Source of the DNA: Paludibacter sp.
GTDB taxonomy: Bacteria; Bacteroidota; Bacteroidia; Bacteroidales; Paludibacteraceae
Direction of reading: 5' to 3'
Assembly (NCBI GenBank): GCA_017882285.1
Contig: JADGPS010000022.1
Location: 1-40,750 of the forward strand
DNA: 40,750 nucleotides
Of the stretch, positions 13,378 through 35,951 are shown one piece after another. The position numbers and the translations under genes were made by a program. Position 1 is the stretch's first letter. Every line of letters begins with the position of its first letter. A model generated the notes under the pieces. That model searched no databases. It saw only the letters and a list, made by a program, of their open reading frames with translations, and was not told the DNA's origin.

Positions 13378-13496
13378 CTTAATTCCCCCAAAGCGGATAG
13401 TTTTAAAATTATAAGTTAACAAAACAAATAAATCATATTTATGTTCGACGGGTAATATTGAACTTCAGGTTGAGCATTAACATTTTGTGTTTGTTT

Positions 13497-16400
13497 CTAT
13501 AGATTCTTTTCCACCCATTTTCTCGCATTTACAAACGCTTCTACCCATGGAGTGATTTGGTCGTTTGCTCTGCGGTCAGCCGGATAATGCGCCCATTGCC
13601 AGGGGAAAATAGCCCGTTCGGGATGTGGCATCATGGCCAAATGACGACCATCAGTCGAACAAATTCCGGCTACACCATAATCCGAACCGTTTGGATTTCC
13701 CGGATAGGCTGAATAGGAGTATTTGGCAATGATATTGTATTCGTTTTCATCCTTTGGAAAATAGAATTTTCCTTCGCCGTGTGCCACCCAAACGCCCAGT
13801 TTACTGCCCGATAAGGAACCTAACATCACCGAATTGTTTTGGGGAATGGTCAAACCCAAAAAGCCAGATTCAAATTTATGCGAATCGTTGTGCAACATGC
13901 GTGGTTTTACGTCGTGTTCGAAATTTATCAAATCAAGTTCAATCATCAACTGGCAACCGTTACAAATTCCCAAACTCAGCGTATCATTTCGTTTGTAGTA
14001 ATTATCCAGTGCCAGTTTGGCTTTTTCGTTAAATAAAAATCCTCCTGCCCAACCTTTGGCAGAACCGAGTACGTCTGAATTGGAAAAGCCACCGCAGAAC
14101 ACAATCATATTAACATCTTCCAGCGTTTCGCGTCCGGTTGCCAAATCGGTCATGTGAACATCTTTTACATCGAAACCGGCTATGTAAAGCGCATAAGCCA
14201 TTTCGCGGTCACCATTGGTTCCTTTGTCGCGAATTATGGCAGCACGAACGCCACTTGGTTTGCGGTCTTGCGAAATGCCAAATTGCGAGAATTTTCCCTT
14301 GAAAGTTTTATCGAAATTGAACTCCAGCACTTGGTTTTTATAATTATTGAAACGGGCAGACGCACATATTTCTCCACTTTGTTTGCGGTCGAGCAAATAC
14401 GACGAGCGGAACCAAACATCGCGCAATTCATTGATGGAGAATGTGTATGAAATGCTTTTCTTATTAATTTCCAATCGGCGTTCGGCAATTGGAGTGGCAA
14501 CGCGGGCATAACCAACTCCGTTGCCTTCCAATATTTTCTCAACCGCTTTTTTATCTTTTACCTGAATCAAAACGCCCGGATTTTCGGCAAATAAGATATT
14601 CACCAAAGAAGTTTCTGCAATATCGTCCAATTTTACATTCAAGCCACCGGCCGAATTTGCAAAATTCATTTCGAGCAAAGCGGTGAACAAACCACCTTCC
14701 GAAATATCATGGCCGGCAAGAATCAAATCTTTCGCAATCAGTTCCTGAATACTGTCGAATGCAGCTTTAAAGTATTCGGCATCTTGCACGGTTGGCACGT
14801 CATCGCCCAGTTTGTTGAGTGTTTGTGCCAATACCGAACCACCGAGTTTGTAATTATCAAACGAAAAATCGATATAATATACAACCGATTTCGGATCGTT
14901 TACCAATACCGGACTAACTGTTTTCTGAACATCCGATACTTCCGCGCCGGCCGAAATAATAACTGTTCCCGGCGAGAATACTTTTTCGTCGCCGTATTTT
15001 TGAGTCATCGACAAACTGTCTTTTCCGGTTGGAATATTAATTCCCAACGAACAAGCAAAATCACTGCAAGCTTCTACAGCTTTGTAAAGACGTGCATCTT
15101 CGCCCGGATTCTTACATGGCCACATCCAATTGGCACTCAGCGAAACGCTGTCTAAACCATCAGTCAGCAGTGCCCAAACAATGTTTGTCAATGCTTCGGC
15201 AATTGCCAATACCGAGCCGGCTTCGGGATTTACCAAAGCGGCTAACGGTGCATGACCGATAGAAGTAGCAATACCTGTTTTTCCACGATAATCGAGTGCA
15301 ACCACACCCAAATCGTTCAACGGCAATTGAATTTCGCCGGCACATTGCTGACGGGCAATTTTACCGGTAATCGAACGGTCAACTTTGCTTGTCAACCAAT
15401 CTTTACATGCCACCGATTCAACCTGCAAAACATTTTGAATGTAAGTCAGTAAATTATCTTCGCTAACTTCTATTGGGGCATAATTCTCTTCTATTGTTTG
15501 GTCGGTAATCACCGTGCGAGGTGGTTTGCCAATCAAATATTCCAGTGGCAAGTCAATAGGAGCTGCCCCCCAACCCCCTAAAGGGGGAGTTTGATTTGCT
15601 AATTCAGTTTTTATTGTATTAAGAACATGGTCAATATTACCTATAACTTCTTCATTAGTAAATCGAATTACTTTGAAACCATATTCCTGAAATAGTTGAG
15701 TACGAAGTTCATCGTATTCTTTTATTTCAGGTTCGTTGTGGTACTTACCATCAACTTCAATTACCAAACTTTTTTGTAAACATACAAAATCTGCAATACA
15801 ATCACCAATAATATGTTGTCTTCTGAATTTGTAACTGTCAAGATTCTTACTTTTAAGTTGTTCCCAAAGAAATTCTTCTGCCTGAGTAGGATTATTTCTG
15901 TGTTTAACAGCTAATTCTTTTAAACGTGAGTACATTGAAGGATAAGCTGTTTGTACTCCTGTTTTTTGTTCCCCCTTCAGGGGGTTAGGGGGCAGAAACG
16001 TCAATCTCATATCGCCGGTAGTTTCGCCCACCACGTACATTGGAGCGCGTTCGCGTTCGGCAATGCGACGTACACTTTCAATATCATCATGTTTGATAAT
16101 CATACCCATACGTTCCTGACTTTCGTTACCAATAATTTCTTTGGCACTCAAAGTTGGATCACCAACAGGAAGTTTCGATATATCAATTTTTCCACCGGTA
16201 CTTTCCACCAATTCCGAAAGGCAATTCAAATGACCGCCTGCACCGTGATCGTGAATGGAAACAATTGGATTTACATCCGCTTCAGCCAGCGTACGAATCA
16301 CATTCGAAACGCGTTTTTGCATTTCGGGGTTGGCACGTTGAACCGCATTTAATTCTATTGCATTGTTATATTGACCGGTTTCTACCGAAGAAACTGCACC

Positions 16401-17633
16401 ACCGCCCATTCCGATGCGGTAATTGTCACCGCCCATAACCACTACTTTTTCACCAACTTCAGGAATACCTTTCAGCGCATCGCGTCGTGTACCGAAACCA
16501 ACACCACCGGCCAGCATGATTACTTTATCATAACCGTATTTTTTACCATTTTCTTCGTGCTCGAAAGTCAGCAATGAACCGCAAATCAGCGGTTGACCGA
16601 ATTTATTTCCAAAATCGGAAGCTCCGTTCGAAGCTTTAATCAGAATTTGTTCGGGAGTTTGATACAGCCATTTGCGTGGAGTTGTAGCTTTTTCCCAAGA
16701 ACGTTCATTTCTGTTAGCTGAACCGTTCAAGTCGGGTCTCGGATAACTGGTCATATACACGGCTGTGCCGGCAATTGGTAAACTGGCTTTTCCACCACCC
16801 AGACGGTCGCGGATTTCGCCACCGGTTCCGGTAGCGGCACCGTTGAAAGGTTCAACTGTTGTTGGGAAGTTATGTGTTTCAGCTTTTAGCGAAATGACTG
16901 ATTCAATTTCTTTTGTCTGAAAAAAATCGGGTTTATCACCGCTGGCTGGAGCAAACTGTTCTATTTTTGGTCCTGCGTTGAATGCCACATTATCGGTATA
17001 AGCCGATACCAAGCGATTTGGATTTTTTTCGGAAGTTTTCCGAATCATTTTGAACAACGACATTTCTTTTTCTTCACCGTCAATAATAAATTGACCATTG
17101 AAAATTTTATGACGGCAGTGTTCGGAATTTACTTGTGAGAAACCAAAAACTTCACTGTCAGTTAGTTTTCGTCCAATTTTTTCGCTGATATCATTCAAAT
17201 ATTCAATTTCATCAGGACTTAATGCCAAACCTTCCTGAGCGTTGTAAGTGGCAATATCATCAATGGATAAAATTGGTTCCGGTTGTTTGTTTACCGTGAA
17301 AATATCTTGCCCCAAACCTGTATAAATTCGTTGCAACATCGGGTCATATTCCAAACCACCTTTGGCAGATGGAGTTTGCGGTACGGCTGTGTATTCTTCA
17401 ATACGAATAATGCCGGAAATTCCCATATTTTGAGTGATTTCAACGGCATTCGTACTCCAGGGTGTTATCATTTCGCGGCGCGGACCGACGTAATTTCCTT
17501 CGACAGTTTGATGAATTAGCAATATCGCTTCACCAAAAAGCCATTCTAACTTTCGGACATCTTCGGCTGCAAGTGCTTGTACCAATTGCACCGCATAAAT
17601 GTGTTGTGCCGGAGTTTTGAAAAATTGAATCAT
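13497..17633 (-). CDS. purL: Phosphoribosylformylglycinamidine synthase with in-frame DUF559 insertion
   Basis: PurL makes FGAM from FGAR, glutamine and ATP, a step of de novo purine synthesis. This is the large single-chain form: an N-terminal PurS-like domain, a linker, two PurM-like halves, and a C-terminal glutaminase with nucleophile C1224 in SLGICNGCQL and the late MMPHPERAIFPWQW. Conserved blocks include the SEHCRHKIFNG region, LKAETHNFP and SLSANWMWPCKNPGEDARLY. At 1378 residues it is about 145 longer than expected. The excess is residues about 547-690: after GDMRLTF and before PIDLPLEYLIGKPPRT, E. coli-type enzymes have only a short loop, but here a whole DUF559 endonuclease domain is present (see 15563-15995). 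All purL motifs on both sides remain in frame, so the enzyme is probably still active. Confidence 0.96.
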   Translation of the reverse strand: MIQFFKTPAQHIYAVQLVQALAAEDVRKLEWLFGEAILLIHQTVEGNYVGPRREMITPWSTNAVEITQNMGISGIIRIEEYTAVPQTPSAKGGLEYDPMLQRIYTGLGQDIFTVNKQPEPILSIDDIATYNAQEGLALSPDEIEYLNDISEKIGRKLTDSEVFGFSQVNSEHCRHKIFNGQFIIDGEEKEMSLFKMIRKTSEKNPNRLVSAYTDNVAFNAGPKIEQFAPASGDKPDFFQTKEIESVISLKAETHNFPTTVEPFNGAATGTGGEIRDRLGGGKASLPIAGTAVYMTSYPRPDLNGSANRNERSWEKATTPRKWLYQTPEQILIKASNGASDFGNKFGQPLICGSLLTFEHEENGKKYGYDKVIMLAGGVGFGTRRDALKGIPEVGEKVVVMGGDNYRIGMGGGAVSSVETGQYNNAIELNAVQRANPEMQKRVSNVIRTLAEADVNPIVSIHDHGAGGHLNCLSELVESTGGKIDISKLPVGDPTLSAKEIIGNESQERMGMIIKHDDIESVRRIAERERAPMYVVGETTGDMRLTFLPPNPLKGEQKTGVQTAYPSMYSRLKELAVKHRNNPTQAEEFLWEQLKSKNLDSYKFRRQHIIGDCIADFVCLQKSLVIEVDGKYHNEPEIKEYDELRTQLFQEYGFKVIRFTNEEVIGNIDHVLNTIKTELANQTPPLGGWGAAPIDLPLEYLIGKPPRTVITDQTIEENYAPIEVSEDNLLTYIQNVLQVESVACKDWLTSKVDRSITGKIARQQCAGEIQLPLNDLGVVALDYRGKTGIATSIGHAPLAALVNPEAGSVLAIAEALTNIVWALLTDGLDSVSLSANWMWPCKNPGEDARLYKAVEACSDFACSLGINIPTGKDSLSMTQKYGDEKVFSPGTVIISAGAEVSDVQKTVSPVLVNDPKSVVYYIDFSFDNYKLGGSVLAQTLNKLGDDVPTVQDAEYFKAAFDSIQELIAKDLILAGHDISEGGLFTALLEMNFANSAGGLNVKLDDIAETSLVNILFAENPGVLIQVKDKKAVEKILEGNGVGYARVATPIAERRLEINKKSISYTFSINELRDVWFRSSYLLDRKQSGEICASARFNNYKNQVLEFNFDKTFKGKFSQFGISQDRKPSGVRAAIIRDKGTNGDREMAYALYIAGFDVKDVHMTDLATGRETLEDVNMIVFCGGFSNSDVLGSAKGWAGGFLFNEKAKLALDNYYKRNDTLSLGICNGCQLMIELDLINFEHDVKPRMLHNDSHKFESGFLGLTIPQNNSVMLGSLSGSKLGVWVAHGEGKFYFPKDENEYNIIAKYSYSAYPGNPNGSDYGVAGICSTDGRHLAMMPHPERAIFPWQWAHYPADRRANDQITPWVEAFVNARKWVEKNL
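15563..15995 (-). mobile_element. Hairpin-ended DUF559 endonuclease element inside purL
   Basis: The ends are inverted copies, CTGCCCCC(C/T)AACCCCCT on each strand, 24 of 27 bases matching, each folding as CCCCC-loop-GGGGG. Read with purL, the ends become LPPNPLKGEQ and TPPLGGWGAA. Between them, from M567 (codon at 15933-15935), lies a complete DUF559 domain: NNPTQAEEFLWEQL, FRRQ (603-606), D615 in IADF, E626 and D628 in LVIEVDG, H632, then RFTNEEV. These are the PD-(D/E)XK residues of Vsr-like nucleases. The insert is about 144 codons, has no stop, and lacks intein splice residues at its borders. Exact borders may be off by a few bases, because no target duplication was certain. Confidence 0.88.
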
Positions 17634-17726
17634 GATATATTTGAAGTTATAGAAATTACAGAATATACGGAAGTGTCAGATTATAAAGTAGCTACCTGTA
17701 TTTCCTGTACACCTTCAATTTGAACG

Positions 17727-19982: not shown

Positions 19983-20140
19983 ACCCCCAACCCCCTAAAG
20001 GGGATTTCTTTGGAGGAAGATTAGTGTTTTTGTAATTCAGCAGAAATTTACTGTTTTATGTTTAACGCAATAAACACACAAGAGTTCAATTCAGGAGATA
20101 AAAAGCAACTATTTAAAACTCCCCTTTAGGGGTTGGGGGT
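19983..20140. repeat. Hairpin-ended element without coding sequence, copy 2
   Basis: The left end ACCCCCAACCCCCTAAAGGGG (19983-20003) is inverted against the right end CCCCTTTAGGGGTTGGGGGT (20121-20140). Each end folds as CCCC-TAAA-GGGG. The AT-rich middle of about 115 bases has no open frame of note. The ends match those of the purL DUF559 element, so this looks like its non-autonomous relative. The right end supplies the last codons and the stop of the radical SAM gene. Confidence 0.8.
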
Positions 20141-35856: not shown

Positions 35857-35951
35857 GCCCCCAACCCCTAAAGGGGAGTAAGATGGGGAATGTATTGCAA
35901 AAGATTAACAAGACGAAACTATTTTAAGTTCCCCTTTAGGGGTTAGGGGCC
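35857..35951. repeat. Hairpin-ended element without coding sequence, copy 3
   Basis: The left end GCCCCCAACCCCTAAAGGGG (35857-35876) is inverted against the right end CCCCTTTAGGGGTTAGGGGC (35931-35950). The last 30 bases of the interior resemble those of the 19983 copy (AACTATTTTAAGTT before the right hairpin). At 95 bases it fills the whole space between the permease stop and the ATPase ATG and may affect ATPase expression. Confidence 0.82.

Follow-up and report, generated by a model that had tools for sequence, protein, structure and literature searches.

DUF559 endonuclease domains in frame inside PurL and other Bacteroidota housekeeping enzymes: a putative class of unspliced homing elements

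Here I discuss a 40,750-nucleotide stretch of a Paludibacter genome (the window; contig C135 of a 3.18 Mb source assembly with 98% completeness) in which purL carries an endonuclease domain of the DUF559 family, read in frame with the host enzyme and bounded by palindromic ends. A first-pass annotation had drawn attention to this insert alone; its scope has since widened, for the PurL insert has many counterparts across several housekeeping enzymes of the Bacteroidota. Because the sites recur, the lineages are largely faithful to their sites, the hosts are patchy, the nuclease is maintained and there is no sign of splicing, I propose that the insert is a selfish homing endonuclease gene carried as an unspliced extra domain in a tolerant loop. 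I favor this reading by a modest margin only, since homing is inferred and there are no cleavage, homing or expression data.

The nuclease block in purL

The features of the gene are as follows:

13497..17633, minus strand: purL, FGAM synthase, 1378 aa, with the insert in frame
15561..16007, minus strand: 447-nt block of 149 codons; empty alleles have 33 nt (11 codons) here
15996..16007, minus strand: four codons encoding RLTF, present in 8/8 inserted PurL alleles and in 0/22 of the uninserted alleles read
15969..15995, minus strand: palindromic end 1, on the 5' side in the PurL sense; CTGCCCCCTAACCCCCTGAAGGGGGAA; encodes LPPNPLKGE
15600..15926, minus strand: DUF559/EDxHD-like nuclease domain, its conserved acidic and His residues intact
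15563..15589, minus strand: palindromic end 2, on the 3' side in the PurL sense; end 1 inverted, 24/27; within the stretch encoding TPPLGGWGAA

The host is a phosphoribosylformylglycinamidine synthase above the NCBIfam cut-off, and Pfam places PurL domains on both sides of DUF559 (PF04480; aa 570-678, E 1.2e-31) within a single open frame, which upholds the first-pass claim of a complete DUF559 domain in frame. Its 27-base inverted ends also held exactly as described (24 of 27 positions agree between 15563-15589 and 15969-15995), and so did the residues it named, D615, E626, D628 and H632, whose spacing (11, 2, 4) equals that of D56, E67, D69 and H73 in the alignment of inserts and all four of which the window possesses. 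Its description of an insertion at a short surface loop needs correction: in empty alleles 11 codons (xFVFEQADGEK-like) separate GDM from PIDL, whereas in the window RLTF and the element together take up 149, or 138 codons more on balance, and against such alleles the element is a loop replacement rather than a plain insertion. A second PurL was not seen among the three of four matches read from the window genome, these being the window PurL and two DUF559 matches.

An inverted-repeat search with a seed of 7 recovered the arm pair (26 nt, 92%), which the default seed of 9 had overlooked, and the flanks of the window DUF559 reach an inverted-similarity score of 22 vs a 99% control of 18, the control being 3976 random placements pooled over all loci. 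Beyond DUF559 the block provides only some 10-30 codons per side, in which Pfam finds no other domain. The insertion point is a variable loop, at which a solved PurL chain (9n9w_A) has another length too; a low-confidence model of a 945-residue fragment of PurL plus insert, made from 29 rows (pLDDT 44), leaves the position of the domain relative to the active site unresolved.

The insert was itself modeled by AlphaFold with a pLDDT of 88, and under E 0.001 a fold search returned only NGO0050 (E 2.8e-7) and I-Bth0305I (catalytic domain E 7.5e-5, TM 0.76 on target), three chains in all, followed by weaker matches to PvuRts1I, mitoribosomal proteins and Vsr (E about 0.04); a sequence profile also matched I-Bth0305I (3.2e-6). 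In an alignment of 56 inserts D56 and E67 are each present in 56/56, H73 in 55/56, and D69 and E27 in 54/56 each, and I take these conserved D/E/H residues to be the catalytic ones. D69 has been lost from two of the eight PurL inserts (G034 and G060), in which the PurL frame is still open. By predicted fold and conserved residues the insert is thus likely an endonuclease of the Vsr/EDxHD type. DUF559 has already been placed in the EDxHD homing family (PMC9403480), whose enzymes are reported to have extra DNA-binding parts for long targets (PMC3943268); Pfam shows no such part in the short PurL insert. The dN/dS of the PurL insert is 0.11-0.35, so the nuclease is under purifying selection and hence kept; insert dN often exceeds that of the core. 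An anti-phage defense reading was considered and rejected, as PADLOC gave no more than two matches, both weak (E 0.00046 and 0.00087).

Recurrent sites and patchy hosts

A search of the 48 genus genomes with PF04480 yields 99 matches from 37 of them; frames of 550 aa or more hold 44 of these matches, and in 39 (24 genomes) DUF559 lies inside another protein. Five of the 44 long frames (L096-L099 and L101) were dropped because they match only in part and belong to other proteins that have their own nuclease-like domain; L095, L100 and L103 were also left out of the insert count, and L088 was counted though the sequence beyond its insert is masked. The sites are the MetH linker (10), PurL (8), LeuRS (6), IleRS site B (4), IleRS site A (3) and ValRS (3), together with methyltransferase or restriction genes (3), UvrA (1) and one other host. 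These hosts were mostly named by conserved motifs; for PurL, LeuRS, IleRS, ValRS, MetH, UvrA, RecG, MetRS and urocanate hydratase (HutU) a single example apiece exceeded an NCBIfam cut-off for the enzyme in question, and Pfam places DUF559 between host domains in PurL and six other fused proteins. As a separate observation, the IleRS of G022 (L065 3588-7898) holds two different DUF559 elements and an apparent third, lone in-frame palindrome (KSPKGDLGG).

In the wider order a DUF559 match is found in 124/295 genomes, and the 25 frames read (an incomplete list, most of 500 aa or more) include the LeuRS site nine times, IleRS site B four times and ValRS once, all outside the genus. Scanning named genomes with the insert alignment yielded at least 559 confirmed relatives, the best being a PurL in a Paludibacter MAG and the best ones nearly all Bacteroidota by record title; the best 80 divide into 66 whose frames reach 440 aa or more and 14 whose frames span 67-180 aa, the share in long frames being biased upwards because the query was built from fused inserts, and three of the records (L199, L200 and L215) repeat genus genomes. 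Cultured isolates with a RecG insert belong to Tenacibaculum, Polaribacter, Aequorivita, Flavobacterium difficile, Maribacter (e.g., Maribacter luteus) and Tamlana, those with a MetH insert to Winogradskyella (e.g., Winogradskyella sediminis), Salegentibacter and Aquimarina, and those with an IleRS insert to Marinilabilia and Flavivirga. The first-pass annotation had allowed that an assembly chimera would refute it; this is unlikely because eight assemblies have the PurL insert, and chimeras are ruled out as an explanation because cultured isolates of many genera carry inserts. The sample comprises one genome per species and many MAGs. One RecG with a DUF559 insert (L219) comes from a MAG titled Limnohabitans, which is not a member of the Bacteroidota; the contig may be contamination, or the bin may carry the wrong name.

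PurL was searched in 60 relatives, which gave six filled alleles, and the genus DUF559 search added two for a total of eight. Reading the site in full shows no insert in 20 alleles of the same genus and two from other families, nor does one further allele read in part have one, so the other stated refutation, that the insertion is ancient and present in all orthologues, fails as well, uninserted alleles being present at the same site in close relatives; the site was read in only part of the 48 genus genomes (8 filled, 20 empty and one partial). On a host tree of 30 rows (8 filled), built after cutting out the insert together with some ten flanking columns per side, the filled rows need 7 changes vs a shuffled mean of 7.2, well-supported branches alone force 6, and a single clade for the filled PurLs is rejected (p-AU 7.6e-79); an earlier tree with 6 filled rows needed 6 changes. 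The filled G002 and the empty G011 are PurL sisters only 0.025 changes per column apart. The presence of RLTF in every filled allele and in none of the empty ones fits one original event and later spread. For LeuRS the search matched all 48 genomes, some (e.g., G061, G065, G020 and G025) weakly, through paralogues or DUF559; 29 genes were read, of which six are filled and fall in five places on the drawn tree (no statistical test), with the window genome filled and its sister G015 empty.

The inserts themselves largely sort by site. On the genus insert tree, for which 15 stand-alone copies were tried and 10 extracted, 10 site groups need 10 changes vs 33.1 when shuffled, and PurL (8), LeuRS (6), IleRS-B (4), IleRS-A (3) and ValRS (3) each form one supported clade, the MetH and methyltransferase groups needing 2 changes each. 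Across the phylum (119 inserts, 99 of them labeled, in 10 groups; 16 rows had no site label and 4 are alone in theirs) 16 changes are needed vs 66.5 shuffled, with RecG (13) and PurL (8) as one clade each, while the grouping is imperfect for IleRS-B (7 changes), LeuRS (6), MetH-B12 (3) and ValRS, IleRS-A and MetH-pterin (2 each); many forks of this tree are weak because the rows are short. L078, L131-L134, L136 and L138 were excluded from the insert alignment and the phylum tree (divergent DUF559 type or no long frame), L081 from the alignment for its protein identical to L080, and L199, L200 and L215 from the phylum tree as the genus-genome repeats; L213 was kept there beside L125 (G223), so at least one record is in twice.

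At silent sites many insert pairs are likely younger than their hosts. NG86 dS of the PurL insert is below that of the core in 28/28 pairs, and a composition-corrected four-fold measure is lower for the insert in 19/28, with 9/28 pairs lacking any core window as low as the insert; of the nine pairs without reduction, six span the two host lineages and the other three, each involving G034, fall within a single lineage. The deep split of the PurL inserts parallels the deep split of their hosts, and the history may therefore be vertical in part. When all PurL pairs were pooled, a test for co-conversion of the flanks was negative (permutation 0.14-0.66). In the single pair G002/G011 the right flank stands at 0.65 vs 0.91 for the core, which is suggestive of co-conversion. 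The ValRS genes of G013 and G024, 0.97 identical at the insert vs about 0.85 outside it, are suggestive in the same way, but the sharing could reflect descent, the two being LeuRS sisters. The identical insert protein in the LeuRS of G026 and G069 was set aside as uninformative, the whole loci being about 99% identical.

Palindromic ends and in-frame remnants

Two further features of the window carry the end motif of the PurL element:

19984..20140, no strand: short inverted pair with the same end motif, MITE-like, no DUF559
35857..35950, no strand: another short inverted pair bearing this end motif (up to 2 mismatches), again without DUF559

Over the genome, with up to 1 mismatch allowed, the motif is present at 188 places (94 on each strand) vs 0 for the reversed control, and the 30 loci read (some being the two ends of one pair) are mostly inverted pairs spanning about 90-210 bp, none of the 30 lying inside a frame over 250 aa. 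The MITE criterion of terminal inverted repeats with many short copies is met, as is the criterion for Rickettsia palindromic elements (RPEs) of a palindromic repeat in frame in a protein gene. Inverted flanks exceed the 99% control in 28/39 fused genus copies, 39/77 named copies and 4/15 stand-alone copies, and four of the eight PurL copies (L006, L007, L010 and L086) are at or just under the control line. The stand-alone C8 copy sits between two end motifs, a pair that the 150-base window of the inverted-flank scan overlooked. By eye there is no target-site duplication at the PurL junctions, where the loop is replaced. The palindromes could be a substrate of the nuclease, a repeat already resident that the element picked up at its ends, or linkers retained for in-frame readability, each no more than a possibility.

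The window genome possesses another DUF559 inside LeuRS, with palindromic ends of a different sequence, and two stand-alone DUF559 copies, and it is LeuRS that shows what the element may leave behind. At the first LeuRS site the nuclease is absent from G024 (L155), G013 (L143) and G060 (L146), and a palindrome-like remnant stays in frame where the nuclease element would be; the other 20 LeuRS genes hold no plain remnant, although a trace is possible in G018. A second site in LeuRS carries, in 4/27 genes (G000, L102/L139; G027, L140; G034, L141; G013, L143), an in-frame mini-element without nuclease that is some 35-50 codons long and has a palindrome at either end; these need 4 changes on the LeuRS tree. 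A split LeuRS frame in G031 was considered as an insert case and discarded, its break being downstream and its site empty. The inserts of LeuRS, IleRS site A and ValRS sit just before a conserved T-rich motif, which I take to be the editing-domain motif of the three enzymes, and an apparently equivalent loop is thus hit in three paralogous synthetases (L102, L065 and L069), hinting at possible spread between paralogous sites.

Homing, its rivals and its relatives

In the proposed mechanism the DUF559 endonuclease would be made together with the host enzyme, as an additional domain within a variable loop, and Pro/Gly-rich linkers encoded by the palindromic ends would connect the two; the in-frame location and the nuclease fold are directly supported, and the activity of the fused nuclease and of the fused host enzyme is inferred. 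With an empty allele in the cell, the nuclease would cut near its loop, and repair would copy the element into the cut allele, so that it could spread between related species at the same site. Recurrent sites, patchy hosts, site grouping, purifying selection and many inserts that are younger at silent sites support this directly; the cutting of empty alleles and the repair-driven copying are inferences. Decay would follow with the loss of nuclease residues, then deletion of the nuclease, until only an in-frame palindrome is left, or recombination may bring the empty allele back; the palindrome remnants and the mini-elements are direct observations and the order of decay is inferred. The negative pooled co-conversion test and the imperfect phylum-wide site grouping weaken the homing reading.

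The nearest rival is a MITE-like transposon, in which mobility resides in the palindromic ends, DUF559 serves as a transposition nuclease or merely rides along as a passenger, and the element lands anywhere, its sites recurring in essential genes only since in-frame landings in tolerant loops survive there. The abundance of the end motif, absent from the reversed control, its short inverted pairs outside long frames, the inverted flanks of most fused genus copies and the C8 copy between two end motifs all speak for it. However, same-site inserts are mostly closest relatives across species, a pattern not expected from free transposition within each genome, few stand-alone copies exceed the control (with the caveat that the scan overlooked the C8 pair), and the PurL junctions show no target-site duplication by eye, and I consider this rival unlikely. 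One ancient insertion per site with vertical inheritance and many losses finds support in the two main PurL insert lineages matching the two main host lineages; against it, excision cannot restore the replaced 11-codon loop, so each loss needs an empty allele to recombine with, silent sites make many inserts younger than their hosts, and filled LeuRS genes are scattered, which leaves it quite unlikely. Harder still to sustain is an accessory or regulatory domain adopted by the host: purifying selection on the domain would suit it, but the domain is patchy between sister species, occurs in several unrelated host enzymes, and has lost D69 in G034 and G060 while the PurL frame stays open.

I give just as little credence to removal of the insert after transcription or translation by an unrecognized form of splicing, leaving a mature enzyme without it. 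The location in an essential enzyme does resemble that of inteins and introns, and the inverted ends could pair in RNA. Inteins follow a junction rule of a nucleophile at the junction and a His-Asn end. Yet Pfam detects no intein (Hint) domain in PurL or in six other fused proteins, and intein-type junction residues are absent from the PurL block, which opens with RLTF/LPP and closes with GWGAA before P, so the intein reading was rejected; a group I or II intron was likewise rejected, Rfam showing no intron RNA structure over 13400-17700 at E up to 1 and only one weak snoRNA match. Moreover, the frame is open through both ends of the fused copies, which RNA removal would not need (the copies were, however, chosen by open frame), and a variable-loop site makes removal unnecessary.

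Returning to the homing reading, the first-pass annotation is supported where it saw a protein-tolerated mobile element without intein motifs, similar in logic to RPEs and carrying its own nuclease. Its word "domesticated" fails, as the elements are patchy, largely site-faithful and selected as nucleases, with some copies decaying, and its idea of mobility is refined, the pattern favoring homing into fixed sites over free transposition.

The element shares features with several known systems. Like the EDxHD homing endonucleases (I-Bth0305I) and the Vsr fold, it has a fold and profile match, acidic and His residues, patchy spread and recurrent conserved sites; unlike I-Bth0305I, a mobile intron protein according to its PDB entry, it comes with neither intron nor intein as far as Rfam and Pfam show, and its nuclease frame is part of the host frame. 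Inteins are also in frame in housekeeping enzymes at recurrent sites, with a nuclease domain, patchy hosts and nuclease-less mini forms, whereas the DUF559 insert lacks a splicing domain and junction residues, replaces a loop and has palindromic ends. RPEs are palindromic repeats in frame inside proteins that are likely functional (PMC3733652), but the PurL insert has a nuclease (none is mentioned for RPEs in the sections of PMC3733652 bearing on it), occurs in other bacteria and recurs at fixed sites across species. Short inverted palindromic ends and many nuclease-less copies per genome recall MITEs and REP/RAYT, in contrast to which the 27-base PurL ends carry no GTAG/CGTC tag and the insert has no transposase domain by Pfam. 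I found no description of in-frame DUF559 elements in the open-access literature searched; fused entries may sit unremarked in protein databases.

The niche of recurrent sites in essential enzymes seems to be filled without splicing, in many genera and including cultured species, by elements that can pass unnoticed as part of housekeeping proteins. They provide a natural catalogue of loops that take a 140-residue domain (in aminoacyl-tRNA synthetases, PurL, MetH and RecG), a candidate explanation for where in-frame palindromes without a known origin come from, and a system resembling a gene drive that is open to direct testing. A bolder reading, which I would as readily doubt as accept, is that they are a widespread Bacteroidota homing class that avoids harm to the host gene without splicing, as a tolerated loop domain at a few recurrent sites, with palindromic linker ends shared with a MITE family, leaving in-frame scars and perhaps explaining RPE-like palindromes elsewhere.

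Apart from these elements, there is a second, divergent DUF559 type (near NLPYNPxLKERARELR) in L078, L131, L134 and L136, with L133 and L138 similar, found mostly inside apparent restriction or methyltransferase genes and also with repeated ends.
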